Source: Nocardia iowensis
Lineage (GTDB): Bacteria; Actinomycetota; Actinomycetes; Mycobacteriales; Mycobacteriaceae
NCBI RefSeq assembly: GCF_019222765.1
Contig: NZ_CP078145.1
Span: 6,138,001-6,202,000, forward strand
Direction of reading: 5' to 3'
Length of the DNA stretch: 64,000 bases
Shown in pieces: positions 2,062 to 25,092 of this stretch (the first letter of the stretch is position 1; each line of letters opens with the position of its first letter). The notes beneath the pieces are model-generated. The model saw only the letters and a list, made by a program, of their open reading frames with translations. It had not been told where the DNA came from and made no database searches. The position numbers and the translations under genes are program-made.

Positions 2062-2067
2062 GACAAC

Positions 2068-2335
2068 CACAGCCTTTCCGGAAGCTTGACACGTACGTGT
2101 CAACCGACCAGCGGCTATGACACGTACGTGTCAATGAGTGGAGTCCCGGAAGAGACGTGGATTCCCTGGGCGCGCGCCGCGTCCCGTCCGGGGCAGGCCC
2201 TCGGCCTGCCCCCACCGCCTGCCCAGGGCGCCGCAGTGACTGTCGGTCAAGGAGGAATTTCTGGATACCAAACCGCGGCGTGAATGACCTACCGCCGCCT
2301 GGAAATTCGTCCTTGATCCCGGCCAGGGGCGTCGT
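2068..2335. repeat. Structured repeat, copy 1
   Basis: Clearly homologous, by eye, to 4354-4612 in the same orientation. In order it contains: a pair of 18-bp palindromes (2086-2134), a conserved link GAGTGGAGTCCCGGAAG, a GC-rich hairpin (GGGGCAGGCC, loop CTC, GGCCTGCCCC, 2190-2212), and a long imperfect hairpin with arms 2247-2261 and 2302-2316 that match at 14 of 15 positions. No open frame is conserved between copies, while base pairing is. It starts only about 7 nt upstream of the SprT-like gene's start codon. Confidence 0.8.
2086..2134. promoter_or_regulatory. Twin palindromes upstream of the SprT-like gene
   Basis: TTGACACGTACGTGTCAA (2086-2103) is a perfect 18-bp palindrome. TGACACGTACGTGTCA (2118-2133) is a second, centred 31 bp away, about three helical turns. 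Because each is self-complementary the two can also pair with each other as one long hairpin. Placed 25 to 73 nt upstream of ATG 2061 on the minus strand they could be operators for a dimeric repressor; the TTGACA ends also resemble -35 boxes. No regulator that would bind them is encoded next to them. Confidence 0.65.
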
Positions 2336-4010: not shown

Positions 4011-4316
4011 TCAGTCCCAGGGCGCGGGAGTGTTGGCGGCAGTTTCTATGGGCCGCTCGGTGAGAGTGCGTGCGAGCGTGGCGTAGCTGACTGCGGTGGG
4101 TGCACTGAGCCCAAACGTGAGCGCTAGGTGCAGGGGATCGGCGTTGGTGGAGAGCGCTTCTCGCAGGATGCGGTCACTGCGGATGTGTTCGAGTTCAATG
4201 CCGAGAAGACCGAGATTCCAGATCAGGTGATAGTCGGAAACCGGCGCAATGTTCAGGACGGAATCGCGGGAGACGATCAGGTGCGGGTTCGAGGTTCGCG
4301 GCCATCGGTGGTTCGA
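4011..4316 (-). pseudogene. 3' remnant of an integrase/recombinase-like gene
   Basis: The last roughly 100 codons of the minus-strand frame that stops at 4011-4013 read as a known mobile-element protein tail: HRWPRTSNPHLIVSRD, then SDYHLIWNLGLLGIELEHIR, then ADPLHLALTFGLS and TAVSYATLAR. I recall this pattern (NPHL... DPLHL..xFGxS..TA..Y) from the C-termini of tyrosine-recombinase-related proteins of actinobacterial transposable elements. Family matching breaks off where the 23-nt direct repeat begins (4312); beyond it the frame runs into structured repeat copy 2. The catalytic core is missing, so this is a relic. Confidence 0.65.
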
Positions 4317-4334
4317 GGGGGCCTTTCTTGTTGT
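4312..4334 (+). repeat. Right copy of 23-nt direct repeat (possible att scar)
   Basis: Identical to 1379-1401. Here it is not part of a hairpin: the 5' arm of the terminator is missing and integrase-like coding sequence takes its place, so this copy came from the tRNA-end copy or from an element carrying the same site. It separates the integrase remnant from structured repeat copy 2. Confidence 0.6.
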
Positions 4335-4353
4335 CGTGCCAGATGCGCTCACC

Positions 4354-4612
4354 GCAGCCTTCCGGGAGTCTTGACACCTACGTGTCAACCGGCAACGGCT
4401 GTGACACGTAGGTGTCAATGAGTGGAGTCCCGGAAGGGACGGGATTCCTGGGCGCGAGCCGCGTCCCCGCCGGGGCAGCCCCCGGCCTGCCCGCACCGGC
4501 TGCCCAGGGCGACGCAGAGACGCACGACCAAGGAGAAATTTCCGGACCGCGGCGCGGATGATGTACCGCCGCGCGAAAATTCGTTCTTGGCCCCGGGAGG
4601 GGTGGCAGTCGC
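4354..4612. repeat. Structured repeat, copy 2
   Basis: Homologous to 2068-2335. It keeps the twin palindromes (4371-4418), the link GAGTGGAGTCCCGGAAG, the GC-rich stretch GCCGGGGCAGC...GGCCTGCCC, and the imperfect hairpin whose arms lie at 4528-4542 and 4575-4590. In this copy an outer stem CCTTCCGGGA (4358-4367) / TCCCGGAAGG (4428-4437) also frames the palindrome pair. Differences from copy 1 often come in pairs that keep stems intact. The far right 22-nt arm of copy 1 is absent. Confidence 0.8.
4371..4418. promoter_or_regulatory. Twin near-palindromes, covarying with copy 1
   Basis: TTGACACCTACGTGTCAA (4371-4388) and TGACACGTAGGTGTCAA (4402-4418) each carry one change that breaks their own symmetry compared with copy 1. 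The changes are complementary, so the two sites still pair perfectly with each other. That favours selection on pairing between the two arms, or homogenisation of an inverted repeat, over simple dimer-operator sites. No gene starts directly beside this copy. Confidence 0.6.
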
Positions 4613-6580: not shown

Positions 6581-6946
6581 TCAGCAGAACACGTGCGCGT
6601 TGGAGATCAAAGTTCCGCTGTCCAAACCCCGGTTGGTCCATGGGTAGGTGTGGTCAAATCTGCCGTTTACGTAGTCGACACGCAACTCGTTGCCGTGGGC
6701 AATAGCCCAATCGAAATGGCCGTTGAGGCCATGGGAGCCGCAGCCATCAAAGTTGTACCACTGTCCTCTGTGTGGCCCTTCAGCCCCCCTGATGCAAGCC
6801 CGCCCATATTCGCAGGTAGTACGCCACCATCCCGCTGGCGCCGCTACTGTCTCGACCGTCGGTGCAGCCTGGGAGGGGGCTGCAAATCCGATTACCGATG
6901 CGGCCATAGCGGCGCATACCAGAGCTTTTCCGAGACGATTGATCAC
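6581..6946 (-). CDS. Small secreted Cys-containing protein
   Basis: A 121-aa protein with a Sec signal peptide: basic start VINRLGK, hydrophobic core ALVCAAMAASVIGFAA, likely cleavage after PSQA. The mature part of about 90 residues is rich in aromatic and Gly residues and keeps four cysteines (TTCEYGRACI, DGCGSHG and the final FC), which could form two disulphides. The pattern ACIRG....WYNFDGCG resembles small secreted proteins of Streptomyces and Nocardia grouped with peptidase-inhibitor-like folds, but I cannot name the family. GTG 6946 is chosen because AAAGGAG lies 8 nt upstream and the signal peptide starts there; a longer frame from 7027 is not needed. Confidence 0.75.
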   Translation of the reverse strand: MINRLGKALVCAAMAASVIGFAAPSQAAPTVETVAAPAGWWRTTCEYGRACIRGAEGPHRGQWYNFDGCGSHGLNGHFDWAIAHGNELRVDYVNGRFDHTYPWTNRGLDSGTLISNAHVFC

Positions 6947-7337
6947 GTCGGTGACTCCTTTTCTGTGGTGACTTTTCAGGCCAGGTCGGAGGTTTCGTCC
7001 TAGAAATGCACCTGAGCCCAACGGCAATGAACTTCAAGGCCCCCTGTCATCCAGACACAGGGCAATTGGCGTTGCGGGACCTTTACTGCTGAAATGCCTT
7101 GCGTACTAATTTTCTAGAATGCGACGCACGCAAGCAACTCGAATTTTCAACACCGTATCCCCACTTCCGAAACCGCCCGCCAGCAGCGCTGATACAACAC
7201 TGCCAGAAGCTCTTTTATGCGACTGCTCGGTTTTCAATAACCGAACTGAGGCACAACCGATTTGGCGTAGCGGTTGTGGCCGAACTCAACCAGCCGACCG
7301 CTCGGAATCGTTGAGCGGCAGGCAGTTCGGGGGATGT
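6947..7337. other. Gene-free stretch
   Basis: Contains the ribosome site and presumably the promoter of the small secreted protein. The remainder is relatively AT-rich and holds no frame I can support. It is also the region downstream of the idi gene; no clear terminator hairpin was seen. Confidence 0.5.
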
Positions 7338-7880
7338 TCACCAGTTGGGGGCGAGGCGGCGGATCTCTGGGAGCGCGGCGGCGAGTACCGTTCGGAACCA
7401 GGACGAGAAAGGTTGTTGGGCAAGCATTCTCGTCAGATCGTCCGGGCTTGCGAACAGCGTTTCGTGTACCTCGTTGGGATCGGGTTGCAACAGGTGGTCG
7501 GCGCGACCGACGTAGAGGTGGTTGTATTCCCACTCGACCAGGCCCGAGATGGTGTCGGGGTGGTTGTATGTCACGGTTCCTGCCGGTACTACCGCGGTCG
7601 GGGTGAGGCCGAGTTCTTCGTGGGTGCGCCTGGCCGCGGCAGCGGCGGGAGGCTCGCCGGGCAAGGGGTGCCCGCAGCAAGTATTGGACCAGACACCGGG
7701 TGAGTGATATTTGGTCAATGCGCGGCGTTGCAGCAGCATTCGGTCCGTTGCGTCGAACAGGAACACCGAGAACGCGCGGTGTAGTCGGCCCGGCGGCTGA
7801 TGGGCGGAAAGTTTCTCGGCGGTGCCGATGGTGGCACCATCGGGGCTGACCAGCTCCAACAGGATGGATTTGGCGGTCAC
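7338..7880 (-). CDS. idi: Isopentenyl-diphosphate delta-isomerase, type I
   Basis: A 180-aa Nudix-fold enzyme that interconverts IPP and DMAPP. Visible are the catalytic Cys in NTCCGHPLPGE (about residue 68), the Nudix-like box A..RRTHEELGL, and the second catalytic acid in EWEYNHLYVG (Glu about 116). Length matches bacterial type I IDI. GTG 7880 overlaps the upstream gene's stop by 4 nt (GTGA), so it is translationally coupled as the last gene of an eight-gene overlapping set. An idi inside such a set usually serves terpenoid production; an MEP-pathway dxs lies at 50.7 kb. Confidence 0.95.
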   Translation of the reverse strand: MTAKSILLELVSPDGATIGTAEKLSAHQPPGRLHRAFSVFLFDATDRMLLQRRALTKYHSPGVWSNTCCGHPLPGEPPAAAAARRTHEELGLTPTAVVPAGTVTYNHPDTISGLVEWEYNHLYVGRADHLLQPDPNEVHETLFASPDDLTRMLAQQPFSSWFRTVLAAALPEIRRLAPNW

Positions 7881-8515
7881 GAGGGCACCGGTGCCACCGT
7901 CGCGAGGAAGTTTCGCACATGCTGCGCATCCATGTTTCGACGCCAGGCGAGGCGGACCGGTGCCGGCGGTAGATCGTGAATAGGGATGACGCGCACCGAG
8001 TTCGGGACGAGATCGGCCAAGGACGCGAGGGAGATGTGCACGGCGTCGCTGCTCACGACCACGCCGAGCATCTCGGGGATGGAGTCGACGTGGTGGACGC
8101 GTCGAATCTGCCTGCCGCCCGGGGTAGTCCGCGGGACAACCCTGTCCCAGACCTCGACGGGCATCGAGCCGGGACGGTGGAACGACGGGTAGTCGGCGAG
8201 TTCTTCGATCGAGAGATTGGTGCGCAGCGCCAGTGGATGGTGCGCGGAAAGTATCGCGGCACGCGGGTCGAAGGCCAGCACGGGGCTCACTTCGAGGTCG
8301 GGTTCGGCGATGTCGAATTTGACGATCATGACGTCGATTTCGCCGTCGCGCAGCAGCCGGAAGGGATCGATGAGCTCGTACTCGGCTAGTTCGAAACCGT
8401 GGGCAGGGTCGTAGCCGGCGGTCTCGATGATGCGTTCGGCGATGCGGCGCGAGCCGTGGAAGCCGAAGCGAACGAGCTTTTCCACCGGCCGCAGGTGGGT
8501 CGCCGAGGTGGTCAC
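7877..8515 (-). CDS. LysR-type substrate-binding domain without DNA-binding domain
   Basis: A 212-aa protein matching only the effector-binding (periplasmic-binding-protein-like) half of LysR regulators: VRFGFHGSRRIAERII, DGEIDVMIVKF, LAFDPRAAILSAHHPLA and a second lobe with FHRPGSMPVEVWDRVV. The winged HTH that should precede it is absent, and the preceding DNA is coding in another frame, so this is not a truncation caused by the start choice. GTG 8515 overlaps the upstream stop (GTGA) and its own stop overlaps idi (GTGA). It could be a ligand-binding carrier, a sensor that works with another protein, or a domain recruited as an enzyme. Confidence 0.75.
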   Translation of the reverse strand: MTTSATHLRPVEKLVRFGFHGSRRIAERIIETAGYDPAHGFELAEYELIDPFRLLRDGEIDVMIVKFDIAEPDLEVSPVLAFDPRAAILSAHHPLALRTNLSIEELADYPSFHRPGSMPVEVWDRVVPRTTPGGRQIRRVHHVDSIPEMLGVVVSSDAVHISLASLADLVPNSVRVIPIHDLPPAPVRLAWRRNMDAQHVRNFLATVAPVPS

Positions 8516-9297
8516 GTGTCGTCTCCTCGAAAAGGGGTGGTGATGGGTGTCGAGTCCCGTCGGGTCAGGCAGGCCTGTGCCCGTAGCCGCTGGGTGTCGA
8601 CGGGGTCGGGCATCGCCCGGATCGCCGTGAACGGGCCGGGCACACCGGCCAAGGTCGGGGAGCGATGCAGTGTCAGCGTGTCGCCGGGCCGGATGTGGCG
8701 GTCCAAGACCGCCTCCACCAGTAGGTGATTGAGTGCGATGAGGCCGTCGGTGAGCCGCATGCCCGCCGTGGCGACGTGCACCTGGTGGTCGAGCGGCGCC
8801 CGCTCGGGGGCACCGGATGGCAGCTCGACCGTGCCGGACAGCGGCGGGAGGGCAGCGTCTATGTCGAAAGCGGTGAGCAGGCGGCGCAGCGTCATTGTTG
8901 CCGCGGCGGGCCTAGGTGCCAACCAGGCAGCCGATCCGTCCGGGGCGATGTAGTCGAAGGTGAAGCGGCCCACCAGGTTCGCCGGATTACCGGCGAGAAA
9001 GATGGTGCGGGTGAAACTCCGCCGCCACGCGGCCGCGGCGGCCGGGGCGAGTCCCTGCGCGAAAAGGCAGGTGCCGCGCAGCCACGCGGCCAGCTCCACC
9101 CGGCGCAGCACCACCACGGCGAGGACGTCCCCGGCTGCGGGCGGGTCCGCATCGCTGGACATCGCCGTCGCATAGGCGGACGCCAGGCCCGCCGGGTCGG
9201 CCAGGTCGAATTGTTCGGCCAGGTCCGGTCGTATGACGTTCAGGCGACGCGCCGCCGCAGCACGCAGCACGTCTTGATCTATCGCGGGCGAGGTCAT
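8512..9297 (-). CDS. Unrecognised protein of the overlapping cluster (261 aa)
   Basis: I do not recognise a family. The protein is Ala-rich, soluble, with no signal peptide or membrane segment. Stretches that could serve as search anchors are RGTCLFAQGLAP, RRSFTRTIFLAGNPANLVGR, FDYIAPDGSAAWLAPRP, and near the C-terminus VLDRHIRPGDTLTLHRSP. ATG 9297 has AGGAGG 7 nt upstream and overlaps the upstream stop codon (ATGA); a longer frame to 9507 would lie wholly inside the neighbour and is rejected. Its end overlaps the LysR-domain gene by 4 nt. Constant coupling suggests it works in the same pathway or complex as its neighbours. Confidence 0.8.
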   Translation of the reverse strand: MTSPAIDQDVLRAAAARRLNVIRPDLAEQFDLADPAGLASAYATAMSSDADPPAAGDVLAVVVLRRVELAAWLRGTCLFAQGLAPAAAAAWRRSFTRTIFLAGNPANLVGRFTFDYIAPDGSAAWLAPRPAAATMTLRRLLTAFDIDAALPPLSGTVELPSGAPERAPLDHQVHVATAGMRLTDGLIALNHLLVEAVLDRHIRPGDTLTLHRSPTLAGVPGPFTAIRAMPDPVDTQRLRAQACLTRRDSTPITTPFRGDDT

Positions 9298-10475
9298 AGG
9301 TAGACCTCCTGCAACAGTGAGCGCCGCGCGGCCGGTCGATACCGGGCCAGCAGGCGCGAAGTCAGCCGGTAGGGGTCCACATACGCGGCGTTTCCCCGGG
9401 TGGCCAGATGCTCGGCGACGAATTCCGCCGAGGTGGCGCGATCCTCGTCCCGTCCACCGGCCAGCAACCTGCGGGCCCGATCGAGGCATCCCGTCAACCG
9501 TTGCCAATCGAAGGACTGACTGCTGCTCGGACCGAGGGTCGCGATGAAATACAGCCGCACACCGAGACTCACTTCCTCACTGTCGTGTCCGGCACCCACC
9601 CGGTCGAGCAGCGCACCCAGATGAACCTCATGCCAGTCGCCGGAACGCGCCGACCGAATGTGGCCATCGATCGGCACGCGGCCGATGGTGACGCGGCGCA
9701 CCTTCGGCCCGAAGTTCTCCAGAATGCGTTGCAGCAGTTGGTAATCCGCTTCGAGTTCGGTGTCGCACAGCAGCACGACCTCGTCGTACCCACCGACCAG
9801 GGGCAGCAGTTCCCGCAACGCGCAGGCCAGATAGTTCGGGCGGCCGTCGCGTCCGACAATGCGGCGCAACGGCATCCCGAATCTCGTCGGATCGGCATAG
9901 ACGGGACCGCCATCGGCACGCATGTCCAGGCATAACCCCGAAGCGCCGAGCCGATCGATCATCGCCTCCAGGCTGAGCCCGGGCGGCTGGTGTTCGGTCA
10001 GTCCGGGGTCGTGCATGCCGAGCCGCGCGTACTGCGCGCGCCAGCGCGCGAGGAGACGGGCCGAGGCCGGATGCACCCAGCCGGACTCCTCGACCGCCGT
10101 TTCGTACGGGCGCAGCGCGGCGGGCGCGGGACGGTCCGGCGTTGCCCGGTAGCGGACGTACAGTTCGCCGATCTCGACCTCGGACATGCTCGCGTAATCG
10201 ACGTCACCGCAGGTCCGATCGAGGAATTCCCAGAAGCCCAGTGTCTGTTCGGTGACGTGATAGGCGGTCGGGCTGTACCGGTAGTCGGCGTCGGCGATGA
10301 GTGTGGTGGCCCGGTACAGCACGTCGGTCCACAGCAGCCCCTTGAGGTGGCTGGGCGTGAGCGGCTTGGTCGGCGTGATGGTGACCGGGGCGACCAGCAC
10401 CCGGGGCCGCCCCGGCCGCACGGGCAGGGGGATGTGGGTGCGAGCCGCGATCGGTGTGTGCGTCTCAATGCTCAT
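9294..10475 (-). CDS. Unrecognised protein of the overlapping cluster (393 aa)
   Basis: I cannot assign a family. It is a soluble protein with a conserved-looking core: GLCLDMRADGGPVYADPTRFG, the region DGRPNYLACALRELLPLVGG, then VVLLCDTELEADYQLLQRIL, VRRVTIGRVPIDGHIRSAR and VRLYFIATLGPSS. Alternating hydrophobic strands ending in acidic residues (YDEVVLLCDTE) resemble a Rossmann-like or nucleotidyl/glycosyl-transferase-like alpha/beta core, but this is only an impression. ATG 10475 overlaps the FAD gene by 11 nt and its stop overlaps the next start (ATGA). With the 261-aa protein it is one of two cluster members without a guessable role. Confidence 0.8.
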   Translation of the reverse strand: MSIETHTPIAARTHIPLPVRPGRPRVLVAPVTITPTKPLTPSHLKGLLWTDVLYRATTLIADADYRYSPTAYHVTEQTLGFWEFLDRTCGDVDYASMSEVEIGELYVRYRATPDRPAPAALRPYETAVEESGWVHPASARLLARWRAQYARLGMHDPGLTEHQPPGLSLEAMIDRLGASGLCLDMRADGGPVYADPTRFGMPLRRIVGRDGRPNYLACALRELLPLVGGYDEVVLLCDTELEADYQLLQRILENFGPKVRRVTIGRVPIDGHIRSARSGDWHEVHLGALLDRVGAGHDSEEVSLGVRLYFIATLGPSSSQSFDWQRLTGCLDRARRLLAGGRDEDRATSAEFVAEHLATRGNAAYVDPYRLTSRLLARYRPAARRSLLQEVYL

Positions 10476-11925
10476 GGATCAGCTCCCCCGCCAGCGCCGT
10501 TCGCACGGTGTGCAGCAATGAATCCCGGTCGAGCGCAGGTACTCCGGGCAGCTGCGGTGGCCGGGCCCGGCGTACCCGATCGCGGAACTCCGCGTCGTCG
10601 AAGACGTCCTCGGGCGGGGTCAAGCCCATAAAAGAGCGGATCAGGCCACGCCACACGAGGCCGTCGACGCGCGCGGCAGCGGAGATCTCCGTCAGTGCGG
10701 GACGGCCGTCGACTCGCTCGACGGCCTCCATTGGTGTGCCGTGGACTACGCTGCGCCACAGCGCGATACGCGCCGCGTCGTCGGCAGCCGCCTGCTGGTA
10801 CCACGGACGGAACAGCCGATCGGCGAGCAGCGCCGCCGCACGCGCCTGGCCTTCGTCGACGCGCGGCCGCGCGAGAAGCAGGTCGGCGAGTGCATAGGCA
10901 TGCGCAAGCGCCAACGACATGCCGCGCCCGTACAACGGATCGGTCACACACGCCGCGTCGCCCACCGGATACAGTCCGGCCACCGGCGGGCGATCGGTTA
11001 CCGCCAAGGCGCGCAAAGTATTCGGTGGACAGTTGATGGCCCGCACCGGGCTAATCGGCTCGGCGACACCGTCGGCCATCCATGGGGCGGTGATCGCGGT
11101 GGCGCGAGCGGCAGCGGTGAACACCGTCTCATGCCGTAGGTCACGCATGGCGGCATCCTCGGGGAGCACCGCGAGGATGATCGAGAATGTCCCGTTGTCA
11201 CCCGGATGTGCCACCGCCGCATAGTGATCGGCGACGACCCCAGCGGCATTGCCCCGGTTCAGTGGGCCGGGCCAGTCTCGACCGTTGAGCTGGTAGAACC
11301 GGCTGAATCCGCGAAATCCCGAGGGCGCCACCTGATCCGCATCCAGCTGAATGCCTGCGGCGGCCAGCCAGTCGCGTCCGGCGGCACGGCGGCCGGTGGC
11401 GTCGAGGACGACGTCGGCGGGGATTCGGCTGCCGTCGTCCAGCAGCACGCCGCTCACCCGACGCTCGGCATCGATGGCGAGACCGCGCGCGGTTACACCG
11501 TGGCGCATGCGCACCGTCGGCTGCGCGGCGGCCCTGCGAAACAGCAGCACCTCCAACGTCTTCCGACGGCAGGCGAGCGCAACCAACGCCTCGTCACCGG
11601 GTTCGGGTTCGCGGTGCGTCGCCGCCGGTGGGAGTGCCGCGAGGAGGTCGAGTGGAACGGCACCCGCCGCGAGTACGTCGTGCCACAGCGCGGGCGCCCG
11701 TTCGCGCAGGACGCCGACGCCGACCGAGGTCAGCATGTGCGGATGTTCGGCCTGCGGGACGCTGGACCGGAGCCAACGCTCCCCGGCGAGCGCGGCCGGG
11801 CCCTCCGGTGGCGCCGCGGACCGTTCGAGCACCTGAACCCGGTGTCCCCGTTCACCGAGTGCGAGTGCGGCCGCCAGTCCGGCGATGCCACCACCGACCA
11901 CTACGACAGCGGGTTTGTCCGTCAC
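10465..11925 (-). CDS. FAD-dependent oxidoreductase (geranylgeranyl-reductase/halogenase-like fold)
   Basis: A 486-aa flavoprotein. The N-terminal dinucleotide fold is clear (VVVVGGGIAGLAAALALGERG, residues about 7-27, then the ribose-binding acidic end QVLERS). A DG-type motif appears mid-protein (LDDGSRIPADVVLDATGRR) and the C-terminal FAD motif GDAACVTDPLYGRGMSLA near 330-350. This layout is that of the group containing geranylgeranyl reductases, epoxidases and flavin halogenases; I saw no WxWxIP halogenase motif. Possible roles are hydroxylation, epoxidation or double-bond reduction of a lipophilic substrate. GTG 11925 overlaps the methyltransferase stop (GTGA). Confidence 0.8.
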   Translation of the reverse strand: MTDKPAVVVVGGGIAGLAAALALGERGHRVQVLERSAAPPEGPAALAGERWLRSSVPQAEHPHMLTSVGVGVLRERAPALWHDVLAAGAVPLDLLAALPPAATHREPEPGDEALVALACRRKTLEVLLFRRAAAQPTVRMRHGVTARGLAIDAERRVSGVLLDDGSRIPADVVLDATGRRAAGRDWLAAAGIQLDADQVAPSGFRGFSRFYQLNGRDWPGPLNRGNAAGVVADHYAAVAHPGDNGTFSIILAVLPEDAAMRDLRHETVFTAAARATAITAPWMADGVAEPISPVRAINCPPNTLRALAVTDRPPVAGLYPVGDAACVTDPLYGRGMSLALAHAYALADLLLARPRVDEGQARAAALLADRLFRPWYQQAAADDAARIALWRSVVHGTPMEAVERVDGRPALTEISAAARVDGLVWRGLIRSFMGLTPPEDVFDDAEFRDRVRRARPPQLPGVPALDRDSLLHTVRTALAGELIHEH

Positions 11926-12782
11926 GACGGGAAACGCCGTCCGTGTACGAAGAACACCCGACGGACACCGGTGTCGGTCCGCGGCGGCACGGGGTCGGGC
12001 CAGCGGCCGAAATCAGCGGAAGGTTCGCCCGGCTGTACCGCGACCGCCTCGATACCGTGCCCGGCGAACAGCGCCTCGGGCTTATTGGTGCCGAACCGCC
12101 ACGGGCAGCCCCAACCCGCGAAAACGTCGAGCAGGCCACGCATCTGCGGCAACACCAGGGCATCGCTGTTGACGACATCGGCCGCCACCAGCGTGCCCGG
12201 CGCGGTCACCGACGCGACGCTGTCCAGCACGCGATGCACCGCGGACTCGGGGATGTAGTACAGCAGGCCTTCCAACAGCCACACCGACGGCCGGTCCGGG
12301 TCATAACCGGCGGCGACGAGTTCATCGGTCCAGCTGTCGGAAACCATGTCGGCGCCGATCGTCCGGCGGTCGACACTCGGAGTCGCCGCGCCGAGCAACT
12401 CCTGTTTGGCGGCGAGCACCTGCGGGCGATCGACCTCGAACACGGTGACATCGGACGGCCATTTCAGCCGGAATGCCCGCGAATCCAGCCCGGCCGGTGC
12501 GATCACCACCTGCGCCCGCGGCACCGATTCGACCGACGCCAGCAACCAGTCGTCGAAGAATCGGGTGCGGATCGCGTTGTAGTCCGGCGTGCTCGGCAGC
12601 GTGCGCGGTGCGGTCGCCGGAAAGGTGACCGCGCGAATCTCGGCCAGCAGGCTCGGGCCGATGTCCCCGGCCAGCGCCGCCGCGAACGGGTCCTCGTACA
12701 GCCGGTCGGCGCGCTGTGTCTCGGCGGCGCGTAACGCCGCGGTGAGGAAGGCGGTGCGCTCAACGGCACCCAGTTCGGTCAT
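11922..12782 (-). CDS. SAM-dependent methyltransferase, LCM/TIGR00027-like
   Basis: A 286-aa methyltransferase of the leucine carboxyl methyltransferase-like group that is greatly expanded in mycobacteria and nocardiae. Family marks: VERTAFLTAALRAAE, LYEDPFAAALAG, the SAM loop replaced by VVIAPAGLDSRAFRL, then FEVDRPQVLAAKQELL and WLLEGLLYYIPESAV. These enzymes typically methylate carboxyl or hydroxyl groups. ATG 12782 overlaps the GH3 stop (ATGA). Placed directly after an acyl-adenylating ligase, it could O-methylate the ligase product or its amino-acid part; this is inference. Confidence 0.85.
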   Translation of the reverse strand: MTELGAVERTAFLTAALRAAETQRADRLYEDPFAAALAGDIGPSLLAEIRAVTFPATAPRTLPSTPDYNAIRTRFFDDWLLASVESVPRAQVVIAPAGLDSRAFRLKWPSDVTVFEVDRPQVLAAKQELLGAATPSVDRRTIGADMVSDSWTDELVAAGYDPDRPSVWLLEGLLYYIPESAVHRVLDSVASVTAPGTLVAADVVNSDALVLPQMRGLLDVFAGWGCPWRFGTNKPEALFAGHGIEAVAVQPGEPSADFGRWPDPVPPRTDTGVRRVFFVHGRRFPS

Positions 12783-14548
12783 GGTCGTCCTCGGTTCTCT
12801 GTGTTCGTGGCGGCGACCTGAGCACTCGCCGGTTGGTTACTCCCCTGTTCACCGGTGAGGCGCTGCCACTGCTCGGGCGCCTGCCGGAAAAGCCGGTCCT
12901 TCACCTGTGTCGGGCGCACGCCCGCGGCCACATCGGCCTGCCAATCCCGGTGGAATGCCTCGGCGTCGATCGGCCGCACGGTCGGCGCGGTCAGCCGCCC
13001 GTCGGCGCGGGCCGCGCGGTAGGCGCGCGACTCGTCGGCCAGCGCTGCATCCAATTGTCCGGCCAGCCGGGCGATCTCGTCGTCGCTCCACCGCTGGTGT
13101 GTGCCGAGCGCGAACCGGTAGGCGGGCCCGGTGCCAGATAGCGAACCGGTGGATTCCGCGTCTGTGACGCGGCACGCGGCGTTGGTGACAGTCAGTCCGC
13201 CAGCGGCCAGCGCCGTTGCCAGCGCACGCACCACCTCCGCGTCGCGCAGGCGTTCACCGACCGCGTTGGATCGGCCCGCCCGTCCCGCGTACTCGACGCG
13301 CGGCACGCCGTCGACCCGATCCACCACGCGCACAACGTCTCCCACGGCGTAGCGGTAGAGGCCGCCGACGTGACTGAAGATCACGTGGTAGTCGTGGCCG
13401 GGTTCCAGGTCGTGCGCCGCCAGCGTCCTGCTGTCGGGCTCGAGATCCTGGTCGGCGGGCACGAACTCGTGCACAGCCGCGGTCACGACCAGGCTGCCCG
13501 CCCGCGGGTGTCGGCCGAGGGCTACTCCGGTCGGCCCCTCCGAGGCGGCGATCGGCGCGGGCAGCACCGTGACCGACGGGCCGAATTCCTCGCGCAGTGC
13601 GGGCAGGTACAGCGACGCCAAACCTGTTGACCAGCAGAAGATCACGCGCAGGCGGGGCCAGACATGGGCGGGCCGCAAGGTGCCGAACCAATCGGCCATC
13701 CGCTCGAGAGCGCGCGCACGATCGGGGTTCGGGGTGGTGTACGGGCGTCCGTCCACGGTGCCGTCGTGCACCTCGCGCACGATCCGTGGCCACCACTGGC
13801 GCAACTGGAACGGCACCGCCGCGACCATGGCGGGGTTGATGCCGATGATGCACTGCACGTCGGCCTCGACCGCCAACCGCAGCCGCAGATACATCTTGTG
13901 CAGGTGATCGTCCGCGTCCACCTCGACGGGCAGGCGGCTCCATGGCGCGCGCGTGCCGGGTTCGGCGGACAGCGGTTCGCCGAACCGCTCGCCGAAGTCC
14001 ACCTGACTCGCCCCGACATGCGGTCGCCCCGACGCGGTGGTCGGCGGCGCTGTCAGGGGATCGTGCTTGAGATTGAGCACCGCGTCGGCGCGACCGAGCA
14101 CCTCCGGGAAGTGCTCGGCCAGCGGCGCCCACGCGGCGTAGAAGAAGGGCAGGAAGGTCGTTCGGACGAAGCGCGGCGTGACCGGGATCTTCTTGCGGCT
14201 GCCCGTGCTGCCGCTGCTGGTGAAGAACACCGCCGGATCGTCGGCGGTGAGCAGGTTGTGCTCCCCCGCCGCCATCCGTTCGATCCAGGGCGCGTGCGCC
14301 GCGTAATCCTGCACCGGTACGGCCTTGCGGAAGTCATCGAGCGTGCGAATACCTCTGAAGCCGTGGGCTTTTCCGTACTCGGTAGCGGCGTTGAAGTCGA
14401 GCAGATCCGCGAGCACCCGCTCCGGCCAGGTGTCGGCCGCGGCGAACGCCCGCCGCAATGCGGTGCGCTCGTGGAAGACCCGCTCCCGGTAGGCCGTGAT
14501 GTGTTCCGGTGAGAATCCGCTGTCCGTTCGATGGTCAAGCAACGTCAC
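12779..14548 (-). CDS. GH3-family acyl-adenylate-forming amidosynthetase
   Basis: A 589-aa member of the GH3 (auxin-responsive) superfamily, which activates carboxylic acids with ATP and joins them to an amine, usually an amino acid. The P-loop-like motif FFTSSGSTGSRKKIPVT is at about 107-123 (plant GH3: SSGT..G..K.IP), the second adenylation motif in FCWSTGLAS near 270, and YRYAVGDVVRVVDR near 400 is the classical GH3 Y.R..GDVV signature. The C-terminal cap domain follows. GTG 14548 overlaps the upstream gene by 14 nt. Bacterial GH3 proteins are known from phytotoxin and hormone-conjugate pathways. Substrate unknown. Confidence 0.85.
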   Translation of the reverse strand: MTLLDHRTDSGFSPEHITAYRERVFHERTALRRAFAAADTWPERVLADLLDFNAATEYGKAHGFRGIRTLDDFRKAVPVQDYAAHAPWIERMAAGEHNLLTADDPAVFFTSSGSTGSRKKIPVTPRFVRTTFLPFFYAAWAPLAEHFPEVLGRADAVLNLKHDPLTAPPTTASGRPHVGASQVDFGERFGEPLSAEPGTRAPWSRLPVEVDADDHLHKMYLRLRLAVEADVQCIIGINPAMVAAVPFQLRQWWPRIVREVHDGTVDGRPYTTPNPDRARALERMADWFGTLRPAHVWPRLRVIFCWSTGLASLYLPALREEFGPSVTVLPAPIAASEGPTGVALGRHPRAGSLVVTAAVHEFVPADQDLEPDSRTLAAHDLEPGHDYHVIFSHVGGLYRYAVGDVVRVVDRVDGVPRVEYAGRAGRSNAVGERLRDAEVVRALATALAAGGLTVTNAACRVTDAESTGSLSGTGPAYRFALGTHQRWSDDEIARLAGQLDAALADESRAYRAARADGRLTAPTVRPIDAEAFHRDWQADVAAGVRPTQVKDRLFRQAPEQWQRLTGEQGSNQPASAQVAATNTENRGRP

Positions 14549-15191
14549 TGTCCTGCAATACCTTTCGTACCGCCGCCACGGTCTCGGTGACGCCGGGTTG
14601 TTCGTGCACCACGGTGACCGGCACGTCGGCTATCTCGTCGAGCATCGCCGCGCGCAGGGCGGTCTGAAAGGACGCGAAGTCCGCATACGGCTCCCCCGTC
14701 GCCGCCGCCGCGTCGCGCTGCTCCATCGGGTTCAGCCGTACGCCGAATCCCGAACGCCGCCAAGCCGTTTCGGGTGAAACATCGAGGTAGACGACGTGCT
14801 GCGGCGGCGGCAGCGTGCGCCACCAGGTGAATATCGGGTGATCGCCGGCACCGACCAGGCGGCATTTGGCCAAGATTTTGTAGTAGTACGAATCGACGAG
14901 CAGCGGCGCGCCCGGCGCGGCCGCCTGAATCCGATCGTGCAAGTGCACGACGGCGCATTGCAGCATGGCAAAAGCGAATTGGTCGGAGTACGTTCCCGGC
15001 GGTGCCGCGAGGACATCCTCGACCAGGTGCCGCCGAAGTGTGCCGAGTAACGCGTGCCGGGGGTGGAGCAGATTCTCGTCGACCGAAATCAACTGCCATT
15101 GCGAGCCGGTCGACAGCGCGGAGAGAACCGTCGACTTACCCGCGTAGTCCGGCCCGAGCAGGACGTAGAAGTCGTTGTCGCGCTTAGACAT
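14535..15191 (-). CDS. P-loop kinase-like NTPase (thymidylate-kinase-like)
   Basis: A 218-aa protein with Walker A at its N-terminus (LLGPDYAGKSTVL, residues about 10-22), an acidic strand ISVDEN, a lid-like region, PLLVDSYYYKILAKCRL that resembles the substrate-binding DR.. region of thymidylate kinases, and VVYLDVSPETAWRR like the conserved VxYLDxxPExAxxR of nucleotide kinases. A small-molecule or nucleotide kinase is therefore likely, but the usual ER/DRY motif is altered. ATG 15191 (MSKRDNDF) is chosen over a much longer frame because the leader upstream is non-protein-like; GGTGG lies just before it. First gene of the coupled set. Confidence 0.7.
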   Translation of the reverse strand: MSKRDNDFYVLLGPDYAGKSTVLSALSTGSQWQLISVDENLLHPRHALLGTLRRHLVEDVLAAPPGTYSDQFAFAMLQCAVVHLHDRIQAAAPGAPLLVDSYYYKILAKCRLVGAGDHPIFTWWRTLPPPQHVVYLDVSPETAWRRSGFGVRLNPMEQRDAAAATGEPYADFASFQTALRAAMLDEIADVPVTVVHEQPGVTETVAAVRKVLQDSDVA

Positions 15192-15520
15192 CCACCCAAC
15201 TAAGCACCCACCGAAAGGGCCGTCAACCCGGCCGGACCGCGAAACCGCATTGCCCCGATTTCTGCTGTCCCGCGAAATCCCTTCTACGTATTCGACATTC
15301 GTGTCCGGATATGGTGGTCGGCTGCGGATACTCCGCACGCACCAGTTCCGGTGTTGCGTAGTCGCCGCAATCGTGCACCGATTCTCCGGTCGGCACCTGC
15401 CGCGAAATGCAGAACGCTCCTGCGGTGGGCAGTGGCGCTTGCCTACCGGCATGCGGCGCCTGGCAGGCTGATCGGGACCGTTCACGCGGTGCGCGCGCCG
15501 CCGCCGATCGAGGAGTAGGG
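15192..15520. other. Divergent intergenic region before the eight-gene set
   Basis: About 330 bp without a gene I can support. It should contain the promoter of the eight-gene overlapping set on the minus strand and that of the small plus-strand gene at 15521. No confident -35/-10 pair or operator dyad was identified. Confidence 0.5.
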
Positions 15521-15838
15521 ATGTCGTACCCCGAGCTGCACACACAGCCGCAGTGGCGCCGGACCGGGAACACCCATTTCCCGGTAGCCGCCCTCGTCGC
15601 GGGCCAATGGTGGGTCTTGCGGCTCAACGGGTTTCCCGATCACCCGCTCTGGACACTGTTCGTCGACGGTCAGCGGCGTTTCGACCTCGAAACCGCGCCG
15701 TCGGCCTGGGGGCCGCTGCACGACGCGCCGATGCTAGAGACGAGCACCGCCCAGGACATCCTGGCACCCATCCGAGATTTTGTGGCGTACGCCAGCGAAA
15801 TCGGCGACCCCTGCGACAACCCGTTCTGCTGCGGGTGA
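15521..15838 (+). CDS. Small hypothetical protein with Cys-rich C-terminus
   Basis: A 105-aa soluble protein (MSYPELHTQPQWRRTG...). It is rich in Trp and Pro (WWVLRLNGFPDHPLWTLFVD), and ends DPCDNPFCCG, a three-cysteine tail that could bind metal. ATG 15521 has AGGAG 6 nt upstream. I do not recognise the family; such proteins with a short beta-rich body occur widely in Nocardia and Mycobacterium as conserved hypotheticals. It is divergent from the eight-gene set and convergent with gyrB, with only 11 nt between their ends. Confidence 0.65.
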   Translation: MSYPELHTQPQWRRTGNTHFPVAALVAGQWWVLRLNGFPDHPLWTLFVDGQRRFDLETAPSAWGPLHDAPMLETSTAQDILAPIRDFVAYASEIGDPCDNPFCCG

Positions 15839-15849
15839 CGCGCAGGTGG

Positions 15850-18272
<2,423 letters not shown>

Positions 18273-23832: not shown

Positions 23833-25092
23833 ATGGAACCGAGCCGAGGGGGTCGCAGCGTGACGGCAAGCCGGGAGGTCGAGGCACCCGCTGTTACGGC
23901 GGACGGGACGGACCCCGAGCTACTCGATCTGCAGGACGATATTTCGTTCGGGCTCGAGGAAGTCAACGAGCTGCTCGCCGAGCTGATCGCGATGCAGGCC
24001 GACCGCAAGGCCAAGGACGGGGAGCTCCTGTCCTATCGGCTCGGTGTCACCGGCGAACAGCCCGAGACGCTGGCCAAGATCGGCGCGCGCTACGACCTGT
24101 CCCGCGACCGGATACGACAGCTGCATACCAAGGCGGTGGGGCAGCTGATTCGCAACGCCCAGTTGAGCGGTCACCGGGCGGCGGATGTGTTCGCCGAGCG
24201 CTACCCGATCGGCGCGCGCGACCAGCAGCTGGTGCGGGCGCTGCTGGTGGAGACCTACGCCACCGACACCGACATCGCGGCAAACGAGTTGTCGTACTTG
24301 AAGTTGCGGCTGGCCGGGCACGCGTCCGAGGACGCGAAGCGGATCGCGGGATTCGTGACGCAACGCATCGCGGCCTGGCAGAAGAAGACGAACCGGCGGC
24401 TCGCCAAACTGCGGGACGCGGAACCGCGCGCGACGAGTCAACTGAATCCGTGGCTGGGGCAAGTCGATTGGCCTGGCTCCGCGACACCGGATGCGCTGCC
24501 GGTGGTCTCGGCCCGGACCGTCGACAGCGACGATGACGGACGAGGCCGTTTCTACCTCGACAAGGTCGGGCGCGATGTGCCGTTCGATTCCGGGTTGGAG
24601 GCGCGGCTGCTGTGGATCCTCAACGCGAGTGACCTCGTCGACTCATTTCAAGAACAGCCCGCCGCCGTCGGTTACCACCGGGACGGCACCGAGCAGGTTT
24701 GCTACCCGAGCATCGTCGCCCGGCTCACCGATGGCCGGGTCGTGTTGATCGATGTCCAGCCGCTCGGACACGTTGCCTTCCACGTCAATCGAACGAAGGC
24801 CGCCGCCGGGCGCGCCTATGCGCACAGCAAGGGTTGGGGCTGGCTCATCTGGACCGGCAGCCTCCTCGGCATCCCTGATCTGCTCGCGCGCAAGGTCGAC
24901 GCGCATACCGCGGCCCAGCTGACCGAACTCGTCGAGCGCGGACCGGTCTCCTGGCCGACGATTCGGCAGCTGCGCGCGGAGCCCGGCCTGGAACTGCTCG
25001 ATTTCGTCGCGCTGGTGCTGCGCAACGAATGGCGCTGGGACCGCGGGCCGTTTCAGCTCAGCGCACCACCATCGCACCCGCCACGAACGTGA
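23833..25092 (+). CDS. Sigma-region-4-like HTH fused to a TnsA/restriction-endonuclease-like domain
   Basis: A 419-aa protein. Residues about 70-105 look like sigma-70 region 4: PETLAKIGARYDLSRDRIRQ followed by LHTKAVGQL. A helical middle follows, then at about 230-370 a PD-(D/E)XK-like core similar in layout to the TnsA N-terminal nuclease: FDSGLEARLLWILN (catalytic-Glu position), SFQEQPAAVGYHRDG, CYPSIVARLTDGRVVLIDVQ, HVNRTKAAAGRAYAHSKGWG. Where TnsA-like enzymes carry an Asp after YxP there is Ser, and the EVK-type motif reads DVQ, so activity may be lost or altered. ATG 23833 lies at the window-typical position; an in-frame GTG 23860 is also possible. It converges with the next gene and overlaps it by 35 nt. 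Confidence 0.65.
   Translation: MEPSRGGRSVTASREVEAPAVTADGTDPELLDLQDDISFGLEEVNELLAELIAMQADRKAKDGELLSYRLGVTGEQPETLAKIGARYDLSRDRIRQLHTKAVGQLIRNAQLSGHRAADVFAERYPIGARDQQLVRALLVETYATDTDIAANELSYLKLRLAGHASEDAKRIAGFVTQRIAAWQKKTNRRLAKLRDAEPRATSQLNPWLGQVDWPGSATPDALPVVSARTVDSDDDGRGRFYLDKVGRDVPFDSGLEARLLWILNASDLVDSFQEQPAAVGYHRDGTEQVCYPSIVARLTDGRVVLIDVQPLGHVAFHVNRTKAAAGRAYAHSKGWGWLIWTGSLLGIPDLLARKVDAHTAAQLTELVERGPVSWPTIRQLRAEPGLELLDFVALVLRNEWRWDRGPFQLSAPPSHPPRT

Follow-up and report, generated by a model that had tools for sequence, protein, structure and literature searches.

Comparison with related loci showed that seven of eight overlapping genes at positions 7338–15191 of the window (the whole 64,000-nucleotide stretch of Nocardia iowensis DNA analyzed here) have a conserved, often overlapping order that runs from a kinase-like gene to a LysR-like gene. 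We see about an even chance that this unit is a horizontally spread, self-contained actinobacterial biosynthetic cassette that encodes two ATP-dependent acyl-activating enzymes and yields a small molecule. The catalytic steps assigned to its enzymes below are all read from family membership. The genes are as follows.

14535–15191, minus strand: P-loop kinase-like protein, 218 aa (ORF call; first cassette gene)
12779–14548, minus strand: GH3-family acyl-acid amido synthetase-like protein, 589 aa (PF03321, PF23571, PF23572; ATP-dependent amide ligase type)
11922–12782, minus strand: SAM-dependent methyltransferase of the LCM/TIGR00027 type, 286 aa (PF04072, TIGR00027)
10465–11925, minus strand: FAD-dependent monooxygenase of the MonCI/Lsd18 epoxidase type, 486 aa (family profile against PDB)
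9294–10475, minus strand: 393-aa protein, proposed stand-alone catalytic domain like that of arginyl-tRNA synthetase (remote profile comparisons)
8512–9297, minus strand: DUF6182 protein, 261 aa (PF19680)
7877–8515, minus strand: stand-alone LysR effector-binding domain, 212 aa (PF03466, HTH model absent)
7338–7880, minus strand: type I isopentenyl-diphosphate isomerase (idi), 180 aa (PRK03759; accessory second copy)

Gene order and overlaps in related loci

An earlier note on this DNA had claimed eight genes and seven overlapping junctions, and the ORF coordinates bore out all of them. The overlaps were 14 nt for kinase/GH3 (14535/14548, minus strand), 11 nt for FAD/393-aa (10465/10475), and 4 nt each for GH3/methyltransferase (12779/12782), methyltransferase/FAD (11922/11925), 393-aa/261-aa (9294/9297), 261-aa/LysR-like (8512/8515) and LysR-like/idi (7877/7880). 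Related loci, which occur in many soil actinobacteria, were gathered via the 393-aa gene; DNA was fetched for 82, and 70 were assessable for gene order. Of these 70 loci, 36 share the order of the seven genes (kinase-like, GH3, methyltransferase, FAD, 393-aa, DUF6182 and LysR-like), and 14 have a five-gene form (kinase-GH3-methyltransferase-393-aa-DUF6182); divergent loci were without the methyltransferase and FAD genes. GH3 was present in 67 and DUF6182 in 68 of the assessable loci, and the 393-aa/DUF6182 pair had 107 relatives in one collection. DUF6182 and real 393-aa relatives also occurred in the identical 6 of 394 genomes, and this comparison across genomes and loci showed DUF6182 to be a near-constant partner of the 393-aa protein. 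One further match of the family search, L019 (E = 2.7e-4), appeared by eye to be a sensor-kinase protein and was treated as chance.

Overlaps were counted where a relative had the two genes of a pair near each other; for each, the start codon closest to where it was expected was picked mechanically. On this basis, kinase/GH3 overlapped in 56 of 59 pairs (by exactly 14 nt in 28), FAD/393-aa in 39 of 44 and 393-aa/DUF6182 in 60 of 73. Counts for the other junctions were 25 of 64 for GH3/methyltransferase, 24 of 42 for methyltransferase/FAD and 25 of 46 for DUF6182/LysR-like (with a gap of 30 nt or less in 43 of 46), and at loci without the FAD gene methyltransferase/393-aa overlapped in 5 of 19. 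Because the overlaps are widely kept in relatives, they go beyond chance.

The earlier note had read the coupled genes as a single pathway, asked whether all eight co-occur in order elsewhere, and regarded scattering of its two unknown proteins without GH3 and idi as evidence against this. The comparison did bear out a conserved, pathway-like unit that includes a GH3 enzyme of the amide-ligase type, seven genes keep their order, and the two proteins travel with GH3. In contrast, idi lay near the cassette in only one of the 82 loci (L043; the count covers type I idi), and the idea of idi as a defining or core part was dropped.

Published precedent

Although no described cluster with this content had been known to the earlier note, the same organization is in print as rubM2-rubP4, a nine-ORF region of the rubiginone cluster of Streptomyces sp. 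CB02414, which Table 1 of that article gives without an assigned function (PMC8487521). The ORFs described there include P4 (209 aa), the GH3 protein P3 (567 aa), the methyltransferase M3 (291 aa), the oxidoreductase B4 (488 aa), P2 (373 aa) and P1 (254 aa), both called hypothetical, and the LysR-like A3 (212 aa). According to the same article, DWB77_01891-01899 of S. hundungensis have the same nine-ORF organization and fall outside any antiSMASH-recognised cluster (PMC8487521). Locus L033 in our set is CB02414 and has the seven genes in order. As far as the region is described, gene kinds and order are those of the window, P2 corresponding to the 393-aa family and P1 to DUF6182. The rub region differs in that it continues with genes for an alpha/beta hydrolase and another methyltransferase, whereas the Nocardia window has idi next, and in that it sits within a type II PKS cluster. 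This was the one paper on the cassette gene set that we found in the open-licence literature, which does not imply absence from print.

The 393-aa protein

The 393-aa protein falls into no Pfam family. Profile comparisons supported a remote relationship between the 393-aa protein and the catalytic domain of arginyl-tRNA synthetase (ArgRS), which would make it a homologous class I domain, and we propose that it is an amino acid- or acyl-activating enzyme. With hhalign, the 393-aa profile scored 38.9 against 19 ArgRS sequences (probability 31%), 52.7 (84%) after addition of the divergent ArgRS-like L018, and 64.3 (95%) against L018 alone, a sequence picked for being a hit. Control scores were 14.3–15.8 for reversed profiles, at most 21.3 for 20 column shuffles and at most 22.5 for six other cassette families; other class I synthetases were not among these controls. 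Single ordinary ArgRS sequences gave no hhalign signal against the family (22.3 and 17.0), and Pfam gave no ArgRS match at E ≤ 10 across its 72 members. The commonest NCBIfam model was ArgRS (5 of 72 members, best E = 0.017), and the EpsD model, with two members, had the better best E (0.0068). In a profile search of 246 genomes, the best match outside the family was a PF00750 protein (E = 4.6e-5); L147 was also matched (E = 6.5e-4). A PDB profile search found the ArgRS structure 2zue at E = 0.3, fourth of six matches, behind designed-repeat and ribosomal chains, and aligned its NPTKPLHMGH with TPTKPLTPSH of the family; a previous profile built from six members missed ArgRS altogether.

The alignment with the ArgRS catalytic domain (PF00750) was collinear, with TPTKPL..H corresponding to NPTKPLH.GH, and included a G.IRSAR.G region. 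In ArgRS, however, the HIGH signature is intact, whereas the 393-aa protein has TPSH and sits in a biosynthetic-type operon. All 72 family members lack two residues of HIGH, its first His and its Gly, so that adenylation by this protein is not assured. It could instead be a degenerate, non-catalytic synthetase fold that serves as a sensor or scaffold for DUF6182, a reading suggested by these losses; yet the last His is kept in all 72, and in the same stretch P35, K37, L39, H43, K45 and D51 are invariant in all members, and we regard this alternative as distinctly improbable. ArgRS contacts arginine through a Tyr and then an Asp four residues on; in the very remote alignment, Tyr was found at 215 in 70 of 72 members and Asp at 219 in none.

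The synthetase-like domain also raises the question of tRNA. The 393-aa protein might charge or use aminoacyl-tRNA, with DUF6182 supplying the acceptor, and there is precedent for synthetase-like enzymes in other clusters, such as AcmF and SbzA (PMC12945691). However, none of the 13 Pfam families that were listed across the 72 members is an anticodon-binding or N-terminal tRNA-contact model, and the family is short (368–445 aa, vs mostly 545–584 aa in the ArgRS set), which makes tRNA dependence rather unlikely. An ordinary ArgRS beside a cluster has been described in the ichizinone paper, where it is named unrelated (PMC12144821).

We favor a tRNA-independent activating enzyme for the 393-aa protein. 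A trimmed class I synthetase acting as a tRNA-independent amide ligase is represented by MshC, the CysRS-derived ligase of mycothiol synthesis. MshC is a precedent for such trimming and differs in its synthetase ancestor.

DUF6182 and LysR-like proteins

The 261-aa protein, earlier taken for an unknown, is a member of Pfam DUF6182 (PF19680, E = 1.2e-78), on which we found no paper in the open-licence literature. A relationship to AfsA/hot-dog proteins was rejected (hhalign probability 0.6% against one AfsA protein), and the DUF6182 profile had short weak matches in PDB, of which the best, a mitoribosomal protein (E = 0.0021), was not believed. The LysR-like protein matched the effector-binding domain PF03466 (E = 2.1e-18) and had no Pfam match to an HTH model. 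As 47 relatives measured 202–266 aa (mechanically chosen starts), this protein is, judging from domain models, length and the close spacing to DUF6182 (30 nt or less in 43 of 46 pairs), without the DNA-binding part in relatives too; we propose that it is a ligand-binding protein.

Other cassette enzymes

Assignment of the first gene to kinases is weak. Its product has the Walker A motif GPDYAGKST and matched PF02223 at E = 0.011 (15.9 bits, below the cut-off of 27); a 37-member profile matched thymidylate kinases (best E = 0.00088), and DxAGK and DSYY.K are invariant stretches of the family.

The GH3 protein, the sole GH3 match in the genome, probably forms amides with ATP, as its family does. 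It matched PF03321 (E = 6.5e-48), PF23571 (1.7e-15) and PF23572 (1.2e-6), its N-terminal, central and C-terminal domains scored 163.9, 57.3 and 29.6 bits against a Pfam cut-off of 23.6, and plant GH3 was its match among structures (best E = 3.5e-19). GH3 ATP-binding motifs take the forms SSGSTG, SEG and Y..GD-type; the Nocardia protein has all three patterns, as do 65, 64 and 63 of 73 members, respectively, some of them partial matches. Its sole NCBIfam match was OlsH, a GH3-like lyso-ornithine lipid synthetase (NF052613; PMC12493201); its score of 71.3 bits lies below the cut-off of 620, and it is not an OlsH.

The methyltransferase matched PF04072 (E = 1.2e-46) and, above the cut-off, TIGR00027 (7e-63), with ML2640 and Rv0731c as structure matches. 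The FAD enzyme resembles MonCI/Lsd18 epoxidases and is a candidate alkene epoxidase: a 26-member profile aligned almost full length with MonCI (E = 2.3e-34, profile positions 3–457 of 480) and also matched Lsd18/LasC (E = 1.7e-29). Unlike the clusters of these flavin epoxidases, the cassette is without a polyether PKS.

Neighboring genes and the isoprenoid question

Most neighbor families around relatives were seen at one locus each. Recurrent neighbors, of which one representative each was scanned, included an alpha/beta hydrolase, a second methyltransferase, a P450, an MFS transporter, a thymidylate-kinase-like protein and an HMG-CoA reductase/APH fusion. Several recurrent "families" resemble antisense ORFs that lie across core genes, and the neighbor-family counts are therefore lower bounds. 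No common product theme was found among the additional scanned neighbors.

The window idi is a type I IDI (PRK03759, 201.1 bits vs an equivalog cut-off of 127), and a second idi is encoded elsewhere in the genome (G000:C1:2820924-2821424, 46%). Since idi is accessory, the "prenylated or terpenoid" product that the earlier note derived from it does not follow. An isoprenoid link for the cassette is nevertheless possible because of the MonCI/Lsd18-type FAD enzyme and the HMG-CoA reductase/APH fusion among neighbors in the divergent group (L092, the sole member scanned, with relatives in 6 divergent loci). A stronger version, in which idi is an integral step toward a prenylated or terpenoid amide or ester, could draw on the same two enzymes, on the 4-nt overlap of idi with the operon end and on the nearby idi in L043. 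Against it stand the rarity of idi near relatives, the second genomic copy, and the lack of prenyltransferase and terpene cyclase Pfam models among 40 selected neighbor proteins from relatives and the window; we consider this version improbable.

Proposed pathway

In the pathway that we propose, the 393-aa enzyme would activate a carboxylic acid with ATP, probably an amino acid (arginine is not required), and together with DUF6182 would pass it to an acceptor. The GH3 enzyme would make a second adenylate and close an amide bond, the kinase-like protein would phosphorylate an intermediate, the LCM-type methyltransferase may cap a carboxyl or hydroxyl group, and the MonCI-like flavoenzyme may epoxidise a C=C bond; the alpha/beta hydrolase adjoining the cassette in some relatives could open the epoxide. 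The LysR-like domain would bind a ligand and not itself bind DNA, and the extra idi joined to the operon end in N. iowensis may raise C5 isoprenoid supply.

More tentatively, and with doubt outweighing confidence, the cassette might represent a new pathway class, in which an ArgRS-derived, tRNA-independent ligase (with TPSH) and DUF6182 carry out a new acyl or aminoacyl transfer, GH3 forms a second amide, and some clusters recruit mevalonate-type enzymes and put the unit on isoprenoids. If so, the 393-aa/DUF6182 pair would mark a biosynthetic family for which no product turned up in our searches, and could be used to find about a hundred clusters that are as yet unexplored, and an ArgRS relative would join the synthetases recruited into small-molecule chemistry. 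The cassette is small (~8 kb) and therefore directly testable by expression in a laboratory host.

Genomic location

A second gyrB (15850–17946, same strand) adjoins the operon and encodes a full-length GyrB, 91% identical to the GyrB near the contig start. Such a gene beside the operon could confer self-resistance in a gyrase-inhibitor pathway. However, in the syntenic relative G409 (L109) this gyrB occupies the corresponding position, with both the cassette and DUF6182 missing, a second gyrB was found in 7 of 58 other genomes of the genus (the three of those checked were without DUF6182), and gyrB was absent from the fetched DNA of the 82 loci. Self-resistance is thus highly unlikely, and was dropped after the genus survey and the comparison with G409. 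In the same relative the flanks are present and ~14 kb holding the cassette are absent, which suggests that the cassette was inserted at the window locus. A plasmid search additionally found one unannotated plasmid record that carries a relative of the 393-aa protein.

Conservation and content of the cassette

We conclude that the gene set is a real, conserved, mobile and orphan biosynthetic cassette. The window covers 6,138,001-6,202,000 of the N. iowensis genome (8.95 Mb, a single contig); in it the eight genes lie on the minus strand at 7338-15191, and ORF coordinates confirmed that all seven junctions overlap, as the earlier note had described. The first gene encodes a P-loop protein with weak likeness to thymidylate kinase (E 0.011, below the Pfam cut-off; family profile E 0.00088). 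Pfam and NCBIfam scans revealed a GH3 protein with three GH3 domains above cut-off, which is the genome's only GH3 match, a methyltransferase of the LCM/TIGR00027 type, a LysR effector domain without helix-turn-helix and, as the eighth gene, type I idi; the 261-aa protein was assigned by Pfam to DUF6182 (PF19680). The best matches of the FAD family profile were the flavin epoxidases MonCI (2.3e-34) and Lsd18/LasC (1.7e-29).

Scanning contigs with a six-member family profile yielded 107 relatives of the 393-aa protein, of which 80 were kept. These and two more gave 82 loci, 12 of them cut by contig ends, leaving 70 assessable. Most were from Streptomyces; others came from Frankia, Actinomadura, Saccharothrix, Phytohabitans, Actinosynnema and further genera, and a few strains had two loci each. 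Gene content was called by tblastn with the window proteins (E<=1e-5), which divergent copies can escape; on this basis, in 36 of the 70 loci the seven genes other than idi were complete and ordered as in the window, 14 had a kinase-GH3-methyltransferase-393-DUF6182 form and 20 had other forms, including eight of the 393-DUF6182-GH3 type and two of the kinase-DUF6182-393 type. DUF6182 was present in 68, GH3 in 67, the kinase in 59 and the methyltransferase in 58. With start codons picked mechanically, overlaps in relatives were kept at kinase/GH3 (56/59 pairs, exactly 14 nt in 28), FAD/393 (39/44), 393/DUF6182 (60/73), DUF6182/LysR-like (25/46), MT/FAD (24/42), GH3/MT (25/64) and, where FAD was absent, MT/393 (5/19). 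The coupling emphasized in the earlier note is borne out by the overlaps kept in relatives, and its proposal of a dedicated pathway is supported. Its view of idi as a defining gene does not hold, as idi was found near only 1 of 82 loci.

DUF6182 occurred in 6 of 394 genomes of the class, the same six that had real relatives of the 393-aa protein; the two further matches in the 393-aa search were a divergent ArgRS-like protein (locus L018) and a chance match (L019). We regard gene content, order, coupling and, as far as genome sequences go, a near-strict partnership between the 393-aa protein and DUF6182 as established. Within the genus, 2 of 150 genomes had the 393-aa gene; in the second, G519, it lies with GH3 and DUF6182 within 4.3 kb. 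The window's copy had no firm placement in the protein tree, its nearest row by path being Frankia torreyi.

The earlier note knew of no described cluster with such content; the same arrangement is, however, published. For Streptomyces sp. CB02414 (our locus L033), passages of PMC8487521 describe a run of nine ORFs named rubM2-rubP4; S. hundungensis shares this organization, and its copy is outside any antiSMASH-recognised cluster. These passages regard the set as a possible insertion and assign it no function, and we found none in the open-licence literature.

Some loci showed unusual features. A kinase-DUF6182-393 variant without GH3 match occurs in L097 and L016 (genome G018); neighbours of the 393-aa gene in L097 encode a protein with an AfsA domain (11135-12088) and one of 285 aa that had no Pfam match (9141-9998). 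This gene looks interrupted in L017 (G260), whose frame is without the usual N-terminal part, and in L044, which has an in-frame stop inside the match.

Proposed relation of the 393-aa protein to arginyl-tRNA synthetase

No Pfam family matched the 393-aa protein, either the window protein alone or 72 family members. Four lines of evidence, each weak on its own, indicate a putative remote relation to arginyl-tRNA synthetase (ArgRS). Among 72 members, the NCBIfam ArgRS model was the most frequent match, found in five with a lowest E of 0.017, although a glycosyltransferase model matched two with a better E (0.0068). In 246 genomes, with few candidates scored per genome, the top match of the 393-aa profile outside the family was the PF00750 protein in L018 (E 4.6e-5). 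Against all PDB sequences, ArgRS 2zue, which we take to be the Pyrococcus enzyme, ranked fourth of six weak matches (E 0.3), its NPTKPLHMGH aligned with TPTKPLTPSH of the 393-aa family; the three ranked higher were designed-repeat or ribosomal chains aligned to the C-terminal region, and a previous six-member profile missed ArgRS. Finally, hhalign scored the family at 38.9 (prob 31%) against 19 ArgRS, 52.7 (84%) with L018 added and 64.3 (95%) against L018 alone; the first is the unbiased figure because L018 was picked for being a match. Two single ordinary ArgRS gave only 22.3 and 17.0. Controls comprised reversed profiles (14.3-15.8), 20 column shuffles (<=21.3) and six other cassette families (<=22.5).

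P35, K37, L39, H43, K45 and D51 were invariant in all 72 aligned members. The first His of the HIGH signature was missing in all of them, and its Gly position was Ser or Thr. Family members are 368-445 aa long versus mostly 545-584 in the ArgRS set, and Pfam recognised no tRNA-binding domain in the 72; with these two features, the 393-aa protein would be a stand-alone catalytic domain. New here are this predicted remote relation and the near-strict pairing with DUF6182. No word beginning with ArgRS or arginyl occurs in the text of PMC12945691, a review of synthetase-like enzymes of natural products.

The ArgRS-like protein of L018 (14224-16083; PF00750 E 9e-22), the nearest relative found outside the family, is itself unusual, with an arginine-contact stretch that is non-standard as judged by eye.

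Accessory genes and possible pathway

The 393-aa and GH3 enzymes would activate acids, and the pathway may include phosphorylation, methyl capping and epoxidation steps. In relatives, mechanical gene calls, with one representative scanned per family, placed two families mostly directly downstream of the cassette, alpha/beta hydrolases at 16 loci and a second type of methyltransferase at 9; P450 (9 loci) and MFS (12 loci) families were farther away. In a divergent group, a fusion of HMG-CoA reductase with an APH-type phosphotransferase domain (L092:9578-11809, the only one scanned) is beside 393-DUF6182-GH3. This family occurs in six loci (L092, L093, L096, L098, L099, L101), and the adjoining thymidylate-kinase-like protein has relatives in 7. 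Considering these proteins and idi in the window, an isoprenoid connection may exist.

Probable insertion site and second gyrB

A contig (L109) of another Nocardia genome, G409, carries both window flanks, the left at 673-1399 (tRNA genes) and the right at 15506-18168 with pieces up to 27805. Between them are ~0.6 kb in G409 versus ~14 kb, including the cassette, in the window, and DUF6182 was not found in G409. The cassette therefore belongs to a segment that was either acquired by the window's lineage or deleted from that of G409, and since the cassette is rare in the genus, acquisition is the favoured reading. Two events may underlie the left edge, because 39 nt of the flank on the tRNA side appear again at 4312-4350.

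Directly upstream of the cassette is another gene:

15850-17946, minus strand: second gyrB, full-length, 91% identical to the copy at contig 6642-8732

A role in self-resistance was rejected, since G409 has gyrB in the same surroundings without the cassette, a second gyrB-like gene occurs in 7 of 58 other genus genomes (G409 among them), and DNA fetched around the 82 loci of the 393-aa gene contained gyrB near none.

A stretch of ~250 bases is also present twice in the window (2066-2322 and 4351-4596, 80-92% in pieces); next to it, the terminator-like sequence of the tRNA side occurs twice as well (1370-1406 and 4303-4339). Besides, the protein encoded at 23833-25092 (plus strand) matched sigma-70 region 4 and had a TnsA-like match scoring under the cut-off.
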